A DNA stretch of 64,000 nucleotides from Haloarcula salina (GTDB taxonomy: Archaea > Halobacteriota > Halobacteria > Halobacteriales > Haloarculaceae): NCBI RefSeq assembly GCF_010119195.1, contig NZ_WRXL01000006.1, positions 186,001-250,000 of the forward strand. Reading direction: 5' to 3'. Positions 31,321 to 39,317 of this stretch are shown one piece after another (the stretch's first letter is position 1; each line of letters opens with the position of its first letter). Under the pieces are notes generated by a model, which was not told the origin of the DNA, did not search any database, and was given only the letters and a program-made list of their open reading frames with translations. Made by a program: the position numbers and the translations under genes.

Positions 31321-34296
31321 ATGAGCAAGGACGTTATCGAGGTCCGAGGGGCCGAGGAACACAACCTCAAGGACGTCGACGTGGAGATCCCCCGCGAGGA
31401 GCTGACGGTCGTGACGGGGCTGTCCGGCTCGGGGAAGTCTTCGCTCGCCTTCGAGACGGTGTACGCCGAGGGCCAGCGCCGGTACATCGAGTCGCTGTCG
31501 GCGTACGCCCGGAACTTCCTGGGCCAGATGGACAAGCCGCAGGTCGAGAACGTCGAGGGGCTGTCGCCGGCCATCTCCATCGACCAGAAGAACGCCGCCA
31601 ACAACCCCCGCTCGACGGTGGGGACCGTCACCGAGCTACACGACTACCTCCGCCTGCTGTACGCCCGCGTCGGCACGCCGCACTGTCCCGAGTGCGGCCG
31701 CGAGGTGGGCGAGCAGTCCGCCCAGAACATGGTGTCGCGCCTGCTCGAACTCCCCGAGGGGACCCGAGCGAAGCTGTGTGCGCCGGTCGTCCGCGACCAG
31801 AAGGGGGCCTTCGAGGACCTGTTCGACGACCTCGTGAGCGAGGGGTACAGCCGCGTCGAGGTCGACGGCGAGTCTTACGACCTCACGCTCGACCGACCCG
31901 ACCTCGACGAGAACTACGACCACACGGTCGACGTGGTCGTCGACCGCGTCAAGATCGCGCCGGACGCCCGCTCGCGCATCACCGACTCGGTGGAGACCGC
32001 GCTGACCGAGGCCGACGGGACGCTGAAGGTCATCCTCCCGGACCCGCCGGAGGGCGCGGCCGAGACGCTCGGCGGATCGGACGCCCGCGCGACGGGCGAC
32101 CTGGCCGGCGACGGGGCCGACGGCGGCGAGCGCGAGCGCCTCGTCGTCGAACTCTCCGAGGACCTCGCCTGCACCCACTGCGGCATCGACATCTCGGAGA
32201 TCGAGACGCGCTCGTTCTCGTTCAACTCCCCCCACGGGGCCTGCCCCGAGTGCGAGGGGCTGGGCGAGACAAAGGAGGTCAGCGAGGACCTCGTGATCCG
32301 GGACCCGTCGAAGCCGCTGAAGCACGTCTTCGAGCCCTGGAGCTACGACCGGACGTACTACTCCCGACAGCTGGACAACGTCGCCGAGCACTTCGGCGTC
32401 TCGCTGTCGACGCCGTTCGAGGAGCTTGACGAGGAGGTCCGGCGGCAGTTCCTCTACGGCACGGACGACCTCGTCCACTTCCAGTGGCGCACCAAGAACG
32501 GCACGCGCGAGAAGACCGAGCGCTTCGAGGGCGTCATCCCGAACCTCGAACGCCGCCACGTCGAGACGGACTCCGACCGCGCCCGCGAGCACATCGAGGA
32601 GTACATGGCGACAACCACGTGCCCGGCCTGTGAGGGGACCCGGCTCAAGGCGGAGTCCCGGGCGGTGCTCGTCGACGGCACGTCGATCACCGAGGTCAAC
32701 GAGCTGTCCATCGGCGACGCGCTGGCGCACTTCGAGGGCCTGGAGGCGGACCTCTCGGCGCGCGACCGGAAGATCGCCGAGGAGATCCTCAAGGAGATCC
32801 GCGCCCGCCTGGGCTTCATGACCGAGGTCGGCCTGGACTATCTGACGCTGGACCGCGAGGCCTCGACGCTGTCGGGCGGCGAGAGCCAGCGCATCCGGCT
32901 GGCGACCCAGATCGGCTCGGGGCTGGTCGGCGTGCTGTACGTCCTCGACGAGCCCTCCATCGGCCTCCACCAGCGCGACAACGACCGCCTGCTGAACACC
33001 TTAGAGGAACTCCGAGACCTCGGCAACACCCTGCTCGTCGTCGAGCACGACACCGAGACGATGCGGCGGGCCGACGCCATCATCGACATGGGTCCGGGAC
33101 CGGGCAAGCGCGGCGGCGAGGTCGTCGTCAACGGCCCGTTCGACGAGGTGACCGCCTGCGAGGAGTCGGTGACCGGCGAGTACCTCGCGGGCGAGCGAGC
33201 GATTCCCGTCCCCGAGGAGCGCCGCGAGCGCGACGGCGAACTCGTCGTCAGGGGAGCGCGCCAGCACAACCTCGCGGACCTCGACGTGACCGTCCCGCTG
33301 GGGACGTTCACGGCCATCACGGGCGTCTCCGGCTCCGGCAAGTCGACGCTGATGCACGACGTGCTGTACAAGGGGCTGGTCCGGCGGATGAACGACACCG
33401 ACGTGAACCCCGGCGAGCACGACGACATCGAGGGCATCGACCAGATCGAGTCGGTGCGGCTCATCGACCAGTCTCCCATCGGCCGCACCCCGCGGTCGAA
33501 CCCGGCGACCTACACCAACGTCTTCGACCACATCCGCGAGCTGTTCGCCGAGACGAGCCTCGCGAAACAGCGGGGCTACGAGAAGGGCCGGTTCTCGTTC
33601 AACGTCAAGGGCGGCCGCTGTGAGGCCTGTGGCGGGCAGGGCACGGTCACCATCGACATGAACTTCCTCTCGGACGTGACCGTCCCCTGCGAGGAGTGCG
33701 GCGGCGCGCGCTACAACGACGAGACGCTGGACGTGACCTACAAGGGCGCGACCATCGCCGACGTGCTGGAGATGACCGTCGAGGAGGCCTACGACTTCTT
33801 CGAGAGCCACTCGGGGATCCGCCGCCGCCTCGAACTCCTGAAAGACGTGGGGCTGGGCTACATGCGCCTCGGCCAGCCCTCGACCACGCTGTCGGGCGGC
33901 GAGGCCCAGCGCGTGAAGCTCGCCGAGGAACTGGGAAAGAAGGACTCCGGCGAGACGCTGTACCTGCTCGACGAGCCGACCACCGGGCTCCACCCGGAAG
34001 ACGAGCGAAAGCTCATCGACGTGCTCCACCGCCTCACCGACGACGGCAACACCGTGGTCGTCATCGAGCACGAACTCGACCTCGTGAAGAACGCCGACCA
34101 CGTCGTCGACCTCGGGCCCGAGGGCGGCGAGAACGGCGGCGAACTGGTCGCCGAAGGGACCCCGGAGGACGTGGCCCGGACGGAGGAATCGTACACCGGG
34201 CAGTACCTCCGCGACCTGCTGCCGAACGTCGAGCTTGAAGGGCCTCGCGCCGACCGCGAATCGGCGGCCGAACAGCCGGCCGCGGACGACGACTAA
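31321..34296 (+). CDS. uvrA: Excinuclease ABC subunit A (UvrA)
   Basis: The 991-residue protein is a complete UvrA: Walker A sites GLSGSGKSS (about 32-40) and GVSGSGKST (about 668-676), signature motifs LSGGESQR and LSGGEAQR, and Walker B sites VLDEPSIGL and LLDEPTTGL. The zinc-finger cysteines occur as CTHCGID/CPECEGL and [17 protein letters not shown]. It recognises bulky DNA lesions as a dimer and loads UvrB in nucleotide excision repair. No uvrB or uvrC lies in the window. The C-terminal ~20 residues are an acidic tail. Its stop overlaps the 3' end of the PIN gene on the other strand. Confidence 0.98.
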
Positions 34297-34844
34297 TCGG
34301 CCGCGTCGTCGATCAGTTGTTCCGCTCGCTTCACGAGACTCGCACTGAGGCGGGCTCCGACTTCGTCCATCGCGTAGAGTGTCTGTTTGGCGTCTTCGGC
34401 GGTACACTCGCCACGCTCGACTGCTCGTATCAGGACACCGATCGATCCGGAGATGAGGATCGACAGCGCCTTGCAGGTCTGTCGAAGCGGTTTGTCGTCA
34501 GTTATCACGACTGGCCGATCGTTTCTTAATGCCATCGCAAGAAGTCCGACATCGCCTGTAAAATCAGATTCATCTTCAACTCCTAATTGGGAAGCCGCCG
34601 TCTGAACGTACTCATCGATGTCATCGAATATATTTTTATTTTTTAGTATTGGTTCAAATTGTACCCAGTTATCACTCGCACTCTCTAGATCTTTCATCGC
34701 TGGGTTCGTTTTAATTTCTTTAAAAACAGATACTGGGATTACAATCTTCCCATCCAAGCCTCGTAAAAGGTCCAAAGAGTTGGTCTCCGAAAGCGTGATC
34801 CAGACGCTCGCATCAACCAACAACGTCCGGTCGCGGTCGGTCAT
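34293..34844 (-). CDS. PIN-domain toxin (VapC-like)
   Basis: The 183-residue protein has the PIN active-site acids: LLVDASVWITL (Asp), VFKEIKTNP (Glu), FTGDVGLLAMALR (Asp) and VVITDDKPLRQ (Asp), consistent with a VapC-type ribonuclease toxin. It is longer than typical VapC (~130) because of a C-terminal helical extension (about 140-183). The middle of the gene (about 34520-34770) is distinctly AT-rich compared with both flanks. Its ATG overlaps the antitoxin stop by 4 bp, and its 3' end overlaps the uvrA 3' end by 4 bp, so antisense interference with uvrA is possible. Confidence 0.85.
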   Translation of the reverse strand: MTDRDRTLLVDASVWITLSETNSLDLLRGLDGKIVIPVSVFKEIKTNPAMKDLESASDNWVQFEPILKNKNIFDDIDEYVQTAASQLGVEDESDFTGDVGLLAMALRNDRPVVITDDKPLRQTCKALSILISGSIGVLIRAVERGECTAEDAKQTLYAMDEVGARLSASLVKRAEQLIDDAAD

Positions 34845-35137
34845 CGCAACGCATCCACGTCATCCGCGAGGTCGACCTCGTCGTAGTTCGACAGCACTCC
34901 GCGGTCGTTCGCTTCAGCCATCATCTCCGCGATGGTGACCCCAGCCAAATCCGCCGCACCGCGCATCCCGATCTCTCCGTCCTGATAGCGCTGGAGAGCG
35001 ACCCGAATGAGTTCCTCGCGAGCGCCCTGCCGGATCGCCTGCCTGATCGCGTCGCTCCGGCTCTCTCCTTTCGCCTCGGCGAGACGCGCCACCAGATCGA
35101 GTTCCGTATCGCTCATTCGAGTCGTGACGTTCTCCAT
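34841..35137 (-). CDS. UPF0175-like ribbon-helix-helix antitoxin
   Basis: The 98-residue protein has a ribbon-helix-helix N-terminus (VTTRMSDTELDLVARLAEAK, then SDAIRQAIRQG) and a C-terminal UPF0175-like segment (YQDGEIGMRGAADLAGV, then a toxin-neutralising helix). It presumably binds and blocks the PIN toxin encoded directly downstream with a 4 bp overlap. An upstream in-frame ATG at 35158 lies inside the core promoter, only 3 nt from the TATA box, whereas the ATG at 35137 sits 27 nt from it; I therefore start at 35137. The operator-like palindrome lies between box and start. Confidence 0.85.
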   Translation of the reverse strand: MENVTTRMSDTELDLVARLAEAKGESRSDAIRQAIRQGAREELIRVALQRYQDGEIGMRGAADLAGVTIAEMMAEANDRGVLSNYDEVDLADDVDALR

Positions 35138-35142
35138 GCGGA

Positions 35143-35158
35143 ATGCAACGTGTTGCAT
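35143..35158. promoter_or_regulatory. Palindromic operator of the toxin-antitoxin operon
   Basis: ATGCAAC-GT-GTTGCAT is a perfect inverted repeat with 7-bp arms, placed between the TATA box and the antitoxin start. A ribbon-helix-helix antitoxin dimer would be expected to bind such a site and autorepress the operon; this is inference from the family. Confidence 0.65.
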
Positions 35159-35160
35159 CG

Positions 35161-35167
35161 TATTAAG
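35161..35167 (-). promoter_or_regulatory. TATA box of the toxin-antitoxin operon
   Basis: CTTAATA on the minus strand is centred 27 nt before the ATG at 35137. Confidence 0.65.
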
Positions 35168-35263
35168 CGTGCGGTCATACCCGACAATTGTGCCGTGTTC
35201 CGGGATAAATCTCCGAACCAGCCACCAACGCTTTTGTCGGGGGAGCCACCTGATATCACAGAC

Positions 35264-36031
35264 ATGGCGCAACCGACAGCGGACCGCACCGAGCGGAAAC
35301 GGGGTATCGGTGGGCTGGCGAAGCAGGCGAACCCGGCGTTCGCGGCGGGGGCGGTGGCCGTCCCGCTGCTCGCGTTCGCGGGGGCCGTCGCGAGCGGGAA
35401 CCTCCGGGCGCTGACGTACGTCCACGTGATGGCCGGCGTGCTGTGGACCGGCATCGACCTGTTCATGGGCCTGGTACTCGGCCCGGTCCTGGGCGGTCAG
35501 GACCCAGAGGCGCGGGCCGGCTTCTTCTCGTCGTTCACGCCGAAGATGACGTTCCTGATGCCGACGCTGGCCGCGGTGACCGTCGGCGGCGGCATCCTGC
35601 TGGCGCTGCGGCTCGGGAAGTTCCCGAACGCCGACCCGTGGCTGGCGCTGATGACCGCTGCGACGCTGATTCCGGTCGTCCTGCTCGTCGGCTACCAGTT
35701 CGACGCGCTGACCGACCCGAAGACGCTCGTGGCGCTCGCGCTCGCCGTCGTCGGGTCCGGGGCGTACCTGGCGACCGCGCTCCCGCAGTTCGCGATGACC
35801 TCGTGGTGGATCGTCGCCGCGCTCGCCATCGTCACGGTGCTGTCCGTGCAGGGCTTCGGGGTCATCCTCCCCGGCGAGATCCGGATCTACCGGCAGGTCG
35901 TCTCCGAGAACCCGGATGTGGACCTCATCTCCGACATCGGGATGCGAAACGCCAGACTCGGCGGGATTCAGGGCGTCATGCAGTTGGCCATCGTGTTCGT
36001 GATGGTCGGCATCCGGTGGTGGACGCCGTAG
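35264..36031 (+). CDS. Multi-pass membrane protein (DUF2269/CopD-like)
   Basis: The 255-residue protein has about seven transmembrane helices. Its second helix contains TYVHVMAGVLWTGIDLFMGLV and a later one KMTFLMPTLAAVTVGGGILL; the His in a hydrophobic helix followed by W-x-G resembles DUF2269/CopD-type membrane proteins, in which such residues may bind haem or copper. That assignment is tentative. The N-terminal ~20 residues are soluble and charged. The ATG at 35264 is the first with sensible membrane-protein sequence; upstream in-frame codons run through the toxin-antitoxin promoter. Confidence 0.75.
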   Translation: MAQPTADRTERKRGIGGLAKQANPAFAAGAVAVPLLAFAGAVASGNLRALTYVHVMAGVLWTGIDLFMGLVLGPVLGGQDPEARAGFFSSFTPKMTFLMPTLAAVTVGGGILLALRLGKFPNADPWLALMTAATLIPVVLLVGYQFDALTDPKTLVALALAVVGSGAYLATALPQFAMTSWWIVAALAIVTVLSVQGFGVILPGEIRIYRQVVSENPDVDLISDIGMRNARLGGIQGVMQLAIVFVMVGIRWWTP

Positions 36032-36112: not shown

Positions 36113-38299
36113 ATGGCCTGGTCGGGCGGCGAAGGAGCGTGTGAGTTCACGTGTGACCCGTCAGCGTTCCACGACGGGACCGGTGCGGCGGCGGAGTGGA
36201 GCTGTCCCCACGACGTACTCGACGGGCGAGACCGCTGTCCGTTCCACTGCGACCCCGACGCGGTCCCTGTCTCGGTGAGCGTCTCCGACGCGTTTCTGGA
36301 CGCCATCGCCGCGAGCGACGGCGAGGACCGACGCGACCGCGAGCGGGGGAAGCAGTTCCTCGGGGCCACCATCGACGACCTCGACCTGTCGATGGCGGTC
36401 GTGAACGCGGGCGACAACTACCCGATCGACCTCCGCGGCGCGACAGTCGGCCGGATCGACTGCACCGACAGCGAGTTCGGCCAGCGGATCGACCTCCGCG
36501 GCGCGACGGTCGCGGGCACGGCGACGTTCGACGGGACCTACTACGAACTCGACGCGCGGGACGCGACTCTCGGGGAAGTCGTGTTCACCGATGTCACGGC
36601 CGAGCGCCTCGACTGGCGGAACGCGAGCGTCGAGACGGGAACGTTCGACGGCGCGGCGCTATCGACCGTCGACGCCAGAGACGCGACGTTCGGGACGGCC
36701 TCGTTCGAGCGGGCGTCGCTTCGAGACGCCGCGTTCGACCGTGCCGACTTCGGGACGGCGAAGTTCCGCCACGCGACGGTCGAGATGGCGGACTTCGACG
36801 ACGCGACGTTCGAGACGGGCGATTTCTACCACGCGGACTTCGACGAGGCGGACTTCCGCGGGGCCGACTTCGGCCGGGCGCGGTTCTACGGCGCGACGTT
36901 CGGCGGCGGGTACTTCAACGAGACGAGCTACGACGAAGCCGACTTCGCACGGATCGAGGCCGAGCGGTTCTACCTCCCGGACGCGCGTCTCACCGATGCG
37001 ACGTTCGCCGACGCGGTCGTCTCGATGAAGCTCGTGATGCGCGACGCCGTCTTCGCGGGCGTCGACTTCGCGGGACTGGAAGTCGAGCGGCTGGACGTGA
37101 CCGACGCCCGGTTCGTCGGGTCGTCGGTCGTCGACGCCACGATTGGGACCCTCGAACTCGACGGCGCGACGCTCGCGAGCCCCCGATTCGAGGACAGCGC
37201 CATCGAGCGGGTCAACGCGGCGGAGGTGACGCTCCTCGGAACCGTCCGGCTGTCCGGCTGTCACATCGGCGATCTCGATCTCCGGCCGGCAGCGGTCGGG
37301 CCGGGCGGGGTCGCGCTGCTCTCGCTCGCCGAGGCGACCCTCGATGACGGAACCGCCTGCCAGCCCGAGGACGGCGCGCTCGTGTACGACCTCGACCGGG
37401 CGACGCTGGGGACGGTCCGTTTCGAGTGCGGCGACGCACCGACCGCCCTCGAGAGGGTGGCGTTTCACCGGACGCGCTTCGACGGCTTCGACTTCCGGGA
37501 CGACGACGACATCGACCTGGAGGCCGGCGGCTACCGCCTCCACGCACTCGATTCGTCCCTGCGTGCTCCGATCCGTGACGCGCTGGCCTACGCCGACGCC
37601 GTGGACGACGCCGTCGCGACCCTGCACGACGGAGAGACGGACGACCCCGACCACCTCCCCGGTCTGCAACCGCCGGACGGGGAGGGAGCAGACGGAGAAC
37701 CGTCGGTCTCCGACGGGACGGCGACGGTCACCGACGGCGTCGTCGACAGAACGCTGTCGCCAGCCGCGAACGAGACGTTCGACCGGCTCACGACGGCCGC
37801 GGACGGTCAGATCGGGGCGTCGGCCGGCGAGGTCACGTACCTCCGCGCGAAGAACGGCGCGAACGCCATCGCGGACAACACCGCCGCCGCGGAGTTCTTC
37901 ATGTCGCAGATGGCCTACCGGCGACGGTCTCACGGGGCTCGCGCCCGGGACGCCGACGCGACGCTTCGAGAGCGCGCCCGGGGCCTCGTCCGCTGGGGGA
38001 TGAACGGCTTCCTGTTCGTGACGACGGGGTACGGGGAGCGGGCGTCGTACGCGCTCGCGGCGTCGACGGCCATCATCACCGCATACGCCCTGGCCTACGT
38101 CGCTCTCGCCCCCGACCTGTTCGACGGAGTCGGCCAGTACGTTCAGTTGAGCCTCGGATCGTTCATCGCGTTCTTCCTCGGCGGCATCGGCGAGGTCAGC
38201 CACCCGACCGTCTCCCTCGTCGCCCAGTCGGAGGCGTTCCTCGGCGGCTTCTTCATCGCGCTGTACGTCTTCGCGCTGACCCGCTCGGTCAACCGCTGA
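36113..38299 (+). CDS. Pentapeptide-repeat beta-helix fused to a two-helix channel-like module
   Basis: The 728-residue protein has four parts. Residues 1-50 contain a Cys/His cluster (CEFTC, CPHD, CPFHCDP) that may bind zinc. Residues about 85-470 are a long pentapeptide-repeat region (for example FDEADFRGADFGRARFYGA) predicted to form a quadrilateral beta-helix. Residues about 480-610 are a mostly helical, polar linker. The last ~100 residues carry GYGERASY, a transmembrane helix, a re-entrant-like segment (QYVQLSLGSFIAFFLGGIGE) and a final helix with EAFLGGFFIALYVFAL. The last part resembles the two-helix pore module of K+-channel-like proteins, but the TxGYGD selectivity filter is replaced by LGGIGE. 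Function unknown; a gated pore or membrane sensor is inferred. Confidence 0.85.
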   Translation: MAWSGGEGACEFTCDPSAFHDGTGAAAEWSCPHDVLDGRDRCPFHCDPDAVPVSVSVSDAFLDAIAASDGEDRRDRERGKQFLGATIDDLDLSMAVVNAGDNYPIDLRGATVGRIDCTDSEFGQRIDLRGATVAGTATFDGTYYELDARDATLGEVVFTDVTAERLDWRNASVETGTFDGAALSTVDARDATFGTASFERASLRDAAFDRADFGTAKFRHATVEMADFDDATFETGDFYHADFDEADFRGADFGRARFYGATFGGGYFNETSYDEADFARIEAERFYLPDARLTDATFADAVVSMKLVMRDAVFAGVDFAGLEVERLDVTDARFVGSSVVDATIGTLELDGATLASPRFEDSAIERVNAAEVTLLGTVRLSGCHIGDLDLRPAAVGPGGVALLSLAEATLDDGTACQPEDGALVYDLDRATLGTVRFECGDAPTALERVAFHRTRFDGFDFRDDDDIDLEAGGYRLHALDSSLRAPIRDALAYADAVDDAVATLHDGETDDPDHLPGLQPPDGEGADGEPSVSDGTATVTDGVVDRTLSPAANETFDRLTTAADGQIGASAGEVTYLRAKNGANAIADNTAAAEFFMSQMAYRRRSHGARARDADATLRERARGLVRWGMNGFLFVTTGYGERASYALAASTAIITAYALAYVALAPDLFDGVGQYVQLSLGSFIAFFLGGIGEVSHPTVSLVAQSEAFLGGFFIALYVFALTRSVNR

Positions 38300-38339
38300 C
38301 GCCGACACCGTTCTCCGTCCGCGGTTCGTATCACTCGGT

Positions 38340-39317
38340 ATGCACATCGCCTACGCCGCACTGCGTGACCGCGTGCTCGCTATCGACGGCGACGCCGCCT
38401 CCGACTGTCTCGTCGGGCGCGACGTGGAATGCGTCGCGGCCGACCCGGCCGCCCCCGACCGCGCCGTCGTCGGCACCGCAGACGACGGCCTCCAGCGGAC
38501 CACGGACGGCGGCCGGTCCTGGGAACGGGTGCTCGACGCCGGCGACCGTGTGACGAGCGTCACCGTCGGCCCGCGCGACCCCGACGTGGTGTGGGCCGGA
38601 ACGGAGCCGAGCGCCGTCTACCGCTCGACTGACGGCGGCGAGACGTGGGCGGAGCGGCCGGGGCTGACCGACCTGGACTCGTCGTCGCGGTGGTCGTTCC
38701 CGCCGCGGCCGCACACGCACCACGTCCGCTGGATCGCCCTCGCGCCGGACGACCCCGAGCGGGTGTACGTCGCCGTCGAGGCCGGCGCGTTCGTCCGCAG
38801 TCCCGACGGCGGCGAGACGTGGGTCGACCACCCCGAGGGCGCGCGCCGGGACAACCACACGCTGGCGACCCACCCCGACGCCCCGGAGCGGGTGTACACC
38901 GCCGCGGGCGACGGCTACGCCCGCTCGACCGACCGCGGGGAAACGTGGTCACACCCCCAGAACGGGCTCGGCCACCGCTACGTCTGGGGACTGGCCGTCG
39001 ACCCGTCGAACCCCGACGGGGTGGTCGTCTCCGCCGCCAGCGGGCCGCGGTCAGCCCACAGCACGAGCGGCGAGAGCTACGTGTACCGGTGGACCGGCGA
39101 CCGCTGGGCGGTGGCGATGGCCGGCCTGCCCGGCCCCGAGGGACTGGCCCGGCCCGTGCTCGCGGCGGACCCGGACGGCGGACTCGTCGCGCTGACGAAC
39201 CACGGCCTGTTCCGGTCGGAAGCGGGGGCGGAGTGGACCGCCGCGTGGCCCGAGGCGGGGGTGGCCGACTGGCCGAGCGAGTACGACCAGGTCCCGAGCG
39301 GGCTGGCCGTCGCCTGA
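38340..39317 (+). CDS. BNR/Asp-box beta-propeller protein
   Basis: The 325-residue protein contains repeated Asp-box/BNR signatures: [46 protein letters not shown], each preceded by DPE/DPD-x-V-Y/W-x-A blade starts. It therefore forms a sialidase-type propeller. No signal peptide or anchor is visible, so it is predicted to be cytoplasmic. Catalytic sialidase residues are not recognisable, and a binding or scaffold role is more likely. It follows the pentapeptide-repeat gene by 40 bp on the same strand without an evident promoter of its own, suggesting co-expression. Confidence 0.87.

Follow-up and report, generated by a model that had tools for sequence, protein, structure and literature searches.

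The window analysed here, 64,000 nucleotides of Haloarcula salina DNA, carries on its plus strand an open reading frame (ORF) at 36113..38299 that is a real, intact gene of 728 amino acids. Its translation is stop-free, and full-length orthologues are present in six Haloarcula genomes (65-67% identity) and, more distantly, in one Halomicroarcula-type genome (59-66% identity). The product consists of a Cys/His motif, a beta-helix built of pentapeptide repeats, a helical connector and a two-transmembrane (2TM) pore module that has no selectivity filter. A 562-aa ORF on the reverse strand (36659-38347) was considered and set aside as a frame shadow of a high-GC gene; related loci show similar antisense frames.

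The gene order in Haloarcula is uvrA, a membrane protein, the 728-aa gene, a BNR-type protein, MoxR and DUF58, with names assigned partly by eye. PIN/UPF0175 genes also lie within the locus in some genomes. The window has such a PIN-domain-like and UPF0175-like pair (34293-35425, minus strand), toxin-antitoxin-like and named by eye, with uvrA on one side and the membrane protein on the other; some congeners have the pair and others are missing it. The BNR-type repeat gene, also named by eye (38340..39317, plus strand), lies 40 bp downstream of the 728-aa gene, is co-directional in the Haloarcula orthologues and is a possible operon partner. Synteny comparison found it not to be conserved outside Haloarcula. 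A wider neighbourhood comparison found no neighbour gene common to the loci of relatives outside the genus, and the 728-aa protein therefore probably works without a genetic partner of its own.

Predicted cytoplasmic domains

At the N-terminus, residues 8-48 (36134..36256, plus strand) hold a Cys/His motif of the form C10 ... C31-P-H ... C42-P-F-H45. C10, C31, C42 and H45 are each at least 90% conserved in an alignment of 20 relatives, and the motif is a putative metal site. A preliminary description of this DNA had singled out the Cys-rich N-terminus as unusual; given this conservation, it is instead a family hallmark.

A right-handed beta-helix of pentapeptide repeats follows, at about residues 86-461 (36368..37495, plus strand). 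The same description had placed a pentapeptide-repeat region of ~390 residues here, and Pfam, repeat phase and structure prediction agree with it; every sequence segment that it quoted is found in the translation. Pentapeptide models are the sole Pfam matches above cut-off in the protein, and they score far over it (PF13576, 69.6 bits; PF13599, 60.4; PF00805, 48.9). The 5-residue repeat phase reaches 34, against a maximum of 31 across 2000 shuffles. The full-length AlphaFold run, a single chain from a 20-row alignment (mean pLDDT 85.3, pTM 0.77), shows a continuous beta-helix over ~86-461 with pLDDT above 90 for most of its length. Foldseek matches for this part are HetL, QnrB1 and MfpA.

The beta-helix is joined to the membrane module by two further segments. 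The first is an acidic, partly disordered linker (residues 471-548; 37523..37756, plus strand), which has the lowest pLDDT and the highest pN/pS (0.57) in the protein. The second is a cytoplasmic helical connector (residues 550-638; 37760..38026, plus strand) with conserved TYL-AKNGA and FF....YRRR motifs, predicted by AlphaFold as helices 550-563, 569-585, 589-612 and 618-638. The beta-helix may serve as a cytoplasmic gating or sensing domain.

Homology to potassium channels

Three membrane elements are predicted at the C-terminus, all on the plus strand: an outer helix, TM1 (residues 644-665; 38042..38107), a pore helix (673-689; 38129..38179) and an inner helix, TM2 (698-727; 38204..38293). 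Modelled on their own, the last 189 residues gave the same three elements (pLDDT about 71-89); confidence in the C-terminal module is moderate, with pLDDT about 70-90. The pore helix contains the conserved S680, S683 and F684 and continues through the positions of the lost filter. TM2 has a conserved E707 and G711 and a C-terminal TRS..R. Alignment through a relative (L120) places E707 and G711 at LEALCG in KirBac3.1. Lysine and arginine number ten in residues 600-643, two in the last six residues and zero between, a charge distribution that agrees with the placement of TM1 and fits an N-in/C-in topology with two spans and a re-entrant segment.

Just ahead of TM1 is the motif TTGYGER (residues 637-643; 38021..38041, plus strand), found in filterless and filter-bearing relatives alike, with related forms in other archaea. 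The GYGERASY string that begins within it was considered as a filter remnant and rejected, because filter-bearing members have it too. GYGER (residues 639-643) is a conserved cytoplasmic motif separate from the filter.

The preliminary description had proposed a profile search of residues 620-728 against Ion_trans_2 (PF07885); a Pfam search of the 728-aa protein gives no match to this model. Relatives L120, L130 and L114 pass its cut-off; filter-bearing relatives match it well above this level and also match KirBac3.1, NaK, Kv and KcsA structures. We compared a profile of 8 filterless modules with a profile of 3 filter-bearing relatives (filters TIGYGN, TIGYGD and TVGYGN), and hhalign aligned the two over 159 columns with 99.6% probability. 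Two GYG-bearing archaeal relatives, L052 and L053, have an EAFLGAF inner helix in common with the filterless clade. A direct profile search of the PDB with filterless profiles found no credible channel match, so the channel link rests on relatives and on fold.

The fold points the same way. When the predicted C-terminal module was compared with the PDB by Foldseek, the first match (prob 1.00) was HalA (PDB 9nyi; NCBIfam NF051894), the effector in Hailong anti-phage defence. After it, almost all of the best 50 matches are P-loop channels, among them KvLm (4h37, TMt 0.67), MthK (3ous, TMt 0.68) and Kir pores; the E-values are weak (best 0.15) and the matches consistent. A search of a viral structure library returned one weak potassium-channel match and nothing useful. 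Profile comparison and predicted fold together show the C-terminal module to be a true homologue of the 2TM K+-channel pore, which bears out the original reading: a pentapeptide beta-helix joined to a module of channel origin whose filter is changed.

Loss of the selectivity filter

The GYG filter is taken to define K+ channels. The 728-aa protein has no TxGYG filter. We aligned 119 sampled relatives, filter-bearing and filterless, and in this alignment the columns S-x-V-T-F-T-T-L-G-Y-G-D read S-L-G-S-F-I-A-F-F-L-G-G in the protein. The place of the K+ filter TTLGYGD is taken by IAFFLGG (residues 685-691; 38165..38185, plus strand), in keeping with the earlier judgement that an ordinary K+ channel is improbable here. 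That judgement named LGGIGE as the replacement for TxGYGD. The filter is indeed lost, but LGGIGE is not what replaces it: IAFFLGG is the aligned segment, and LGGIGE lies mostly in the extracellular loop GGIGEVSH (residues 690-697; 38180..38203, plus strand), which is variable outside Haloarcula.

LGGIGE could still work as an alternative filter, with GIG standing for GYG and E for D, and the retention of G-I/V-G in the Haloarcula orthologues is what such a filter would show. It would, however, have to be shifted two residues against the family alignment. The segment is kept, as LGG[IV]G[EGA], within Haloarcula only, and the preliminary description had itself named lack of conservation among relatives as grounds for refutation; even within the genus its acidic end varies between E, G and A, so that some orthologues lack the acidic residue. 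Other filterless members with similar pore modules have LGGAED, LGQASK, LGSPPA or LGLPDV at this point. We consider a substitute filter here highly improbable and reject it on the family alignment.

The change extends across the family. At the first filter glycine 71 of the 119 relatives have a hydrophobic residue, 40 have G[YFL]G and eight have other changes (DYGN, AYGQ, EYVG and so on); the hydrophobicity of the 71 at this central column is partly the definition of the class. Other columns also set the class apart. In nearly all filterless members L-G-Y is replaced by [FL]-[VILF]-[LIF], while the last filter glycine is retained in 64 of 71, giving a family-wide pattern of [VI][TAS][FL][VILF][LIF]G. 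In 67 of 71 the V/I of the pore helix is replaced by Q, E or G, and neither the proline that follows the filter nor the P-x-G..AR motif is retained. Mean hydropathy at the filter positions is 2.78 versus 0.62.

The rest of the module is closely conserved. S680, F684, G690 and G711 are near-invariant in the family alignment, and among eight Haloarcula-type orthologues the pore and TM2 have the lowest pN/pS (0.20 and 0.21; beta-helix, 0.34). Decay of the pore into a pseudogene is rejected for the filterless clade on this low pN/pS and on the diagnostic pore-helix signature. The same values bear on whether the C-terminus is now a generic two-helix membrane anchor, monomeric or dimeric, with the function residing in the beta-helix and the channel likeness being historical. 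Loss of the filter and of the P-x-G..AR motif after it would agree with an anchor, as would the dispensability of the gene suggested by in-frame internal deletions in two congeners (see below). A generic anchor, however, does not need the four near-invariant residues, nor would its pore helix and TM2 be expected to be more conserved (about 0.2) than the beta-helix (0.34), and we regard this explanation as improbable.

To place the change on a phylogeny, a tree of family members was built without the filter columns. Filter-bearing members cluster (44 rows, SH-aLRT 94) with only scattered altered members inside; the long-branch GYG rows L052 and L053 fall outside this group. Filter class is strongly clustered on the tree, with 9 changes versus 39.6 in shuffles; many deep branches are weakly supported, and the number of filter losses is not fixed by the tree. 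Since the filter is present in K+ channels at large, we infer that it was lost rather than gained. At the level of sequence comparison, filter loss is confirmed as a property of the whole haloarchaeal clade.

Other filter variants were seen in related proteins. A pentapeptide-channel subgroup (L109, L111, L113, L115, L116 and L118) has a GLGD filter (FATLGLGDVHP) and not GYGD. In further orders of this archaeal phylum, pentapeptide-channel relatives (L180-L182, L184, L185, L186 and L190) have the altered filters LGYSN, LGFSN and TPGYGG, so that filter variation recurs in this architecture far outside the haloarchaea.

Distribution and dispensability

Of 392 genomes of the order, 200 have matches to a family profile covering filter-bearing and filterless members together; these matches fall in 65 of 95 genera. 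This genome has one family member only, and about 20 genomes, this one included, have a single detected member that is filterless. Some genomes (for example G145 and G275) hold both kinds, as would be expected if the filterless protein were a silent subunit in a hetero-tetramer with a filter-bearing paralogue. The genomes with a lone filterless member argue against obligate hetero-tetramers within the family. A family search found no filter-bearing paralogue in this genome, whose only Ion_trans_2 protein is an ordinary RCK-type K+ channel without pentapeptides. A silent subunit is thus largely refuted here, and we find the idea scarcely credible.

Within Haloarcula the gene is intact, partly deleted or absent. 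Two syntenic copies have in-frame internal deletions: in L009 (G027:C1:2496089-2496406) the N-terminus is fused to an intact TM module, and in L021 (G021:C2:770252-770425) 61 N-terminal residues are joined to the last 23, with a match overlap of ~14 bp at the break. A genome search found no match to the 728-aa gene in several congeners. These deletions and absences indicate that the gene is dispensable. The BNR-repeat-like gene is retained 3' of both deleted copies. Elsewhere, short frames contain the end of the pore module only (L153 at G015:C1:2041633-2041827, and frames in G080, G239 C44, G124 and G144 C1) and are possibly remnants of related genes; repeated loss of the beta-helix part is a recurrent pattern among them.

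Proposed function

We favour, with some reserve, a reading of this filterless channel relative as a membrane-anchored beta-helix receptor, probably a tetramer, whose pseudo-pore is sealed by hydrophobic residues. The cytoplasmic beta-helix and its metal-site-like Cys/His motif would be linked by the helical connector to the 2TM-derived module. There, the carbonyl-lined K+ filter has given way to an unbroken hydrophobic stretch, which lengthens the pore helix. The module would still form a tetramer in which hydrophobic side chains close the pore axis and prevent K+ conduction, and would act as a membrane anchor and a platform for oligomerisation or gating. Binding of a ligand or partner by the beta-helix may then be coupled through the module to a membrane response.

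Conservation of the glycine G711 and of E707 in the inner helix would be compatible, too, with a pore that can still open and close. Such a pore could be ligand-gated and not K+-selective (cation, anion or leak), with a hydrophobic gate in place of the carbonyl filter, as in a HalA-like or TMEM175-analogous protein. It would be shut at rest, and opening through the beta-helix would depolarise the cell, for example as anti-viral growth arrest. Besides the retained G711 and E707 and the patchy presence in the genus, the resemblance to HalA, an anti-phage ion-channel effector, speaks for it: HalA heads the PDB fold matches for the module, the full-length model matches it over 440 columns (prob 0.97), and the C-terminus of the HalA profile aligns in end-to-end register with filterless modules (L039, E 1.7e-4; L051, 2.7e-3). 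TMEM175, a K+ channel without a P-loop filter, offers a precedent (PMC7176437). Several results weigh against this pore. The protein misses the HalA cut-off (23 versus 250 bits), a PADLOC defence-system search gave no match, no HalB-type or other conserved neighbour occurs outside the genus, and the stable chromosomal synteny in Haloarcula is atypical of a mobile defence island. We judge a conducting pore of this kind to be plausible, if rather doubtful, and the sealed receptor remains our preferred reading.

A more far-reaching version would make these proteins an undescribed large group of haloarchaeal channels, in which the K+ scaffold and gating helix are kept and a hydrophobic ring replaces the carbonyl filter, forming a new type of gated pore under beta-helix control that either is non-selective or chooses ions by a different principle. 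This seems unlikely to us.

Pentapeptide-channel fusions are already known, and HalA has been characterised. Within the accessible literature, which leaves most subscription papers outside, we found no description of a widespread filterless clade with a conserved pore signature. What stands out is a haloarchaeal clade (71 of the 119 sampled relatives) that conserves the channel scaffold strongly, yet without the filter. Either the P-loop scaffold now serves as a receptor or sealed pore that does not conduct, or a hydrophobic filter is functional, and this is a testable question. There is also a caution for annotation: architecture alone is poor ground for the name 'potassium channel', which some relatives' records bear.

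Comparison with known systems

HalA, reportedly the DNA-gated ion-channel effector of Hailong, resembles the 728-aa protein by profile and by fold: in both, a pentapeptide-type part at the N-terminus precedes a 2TM ion-channel module at the C-terminus, with the register shared. The 728-aa protein differs in being twice as long, in having no conserved partner gene and probably also in its lost filter. None of 146 Halobacteriales genomes passes the NF051894 cut-off. No HalB NTase lies next door; the neighbours, named partly by eye, are uvrA, PIN/UPF0175, a membrane protein, a BNR protein, MoxR and DUF58. Membership in Hailong was rejected on the score cut-off and this neighbour test.

Qnr, MfpA and HetL have the beta-helix fold in common with our protein and are soluble; it misses the Qnr/MfpA equivalog cut-offs (about 51 bits or less versus 240-500). 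Archaeal pentapeptide/Ion_trans_2 fusions (L052, L120, L130 and L022), annotated as 'potassium channel family protein' or 'pentapeptide repeat-containing protein', are closer. They have the same architecture, a pre-TM1 GYG.RP and an EAFLGA inner helix, but keep TxGYG[DN] or GLGD, whereas the 728-aa protein and its clade have neither. The 2TM K+ channels KcsA, MthK and KirBac (PF07885) share the TM1-pore helix-TM2 fold and the E..LG stretch of the inner helix; unlike them, the 728-aa protein is without a filter and goes undetected by Pfam. TMEM175 proteins are K+ channels that lack a P-loop filter and have a different fold (PMC7176437). We draw on them as an analogy and claim no homology; they make a filterless pore conceivable.
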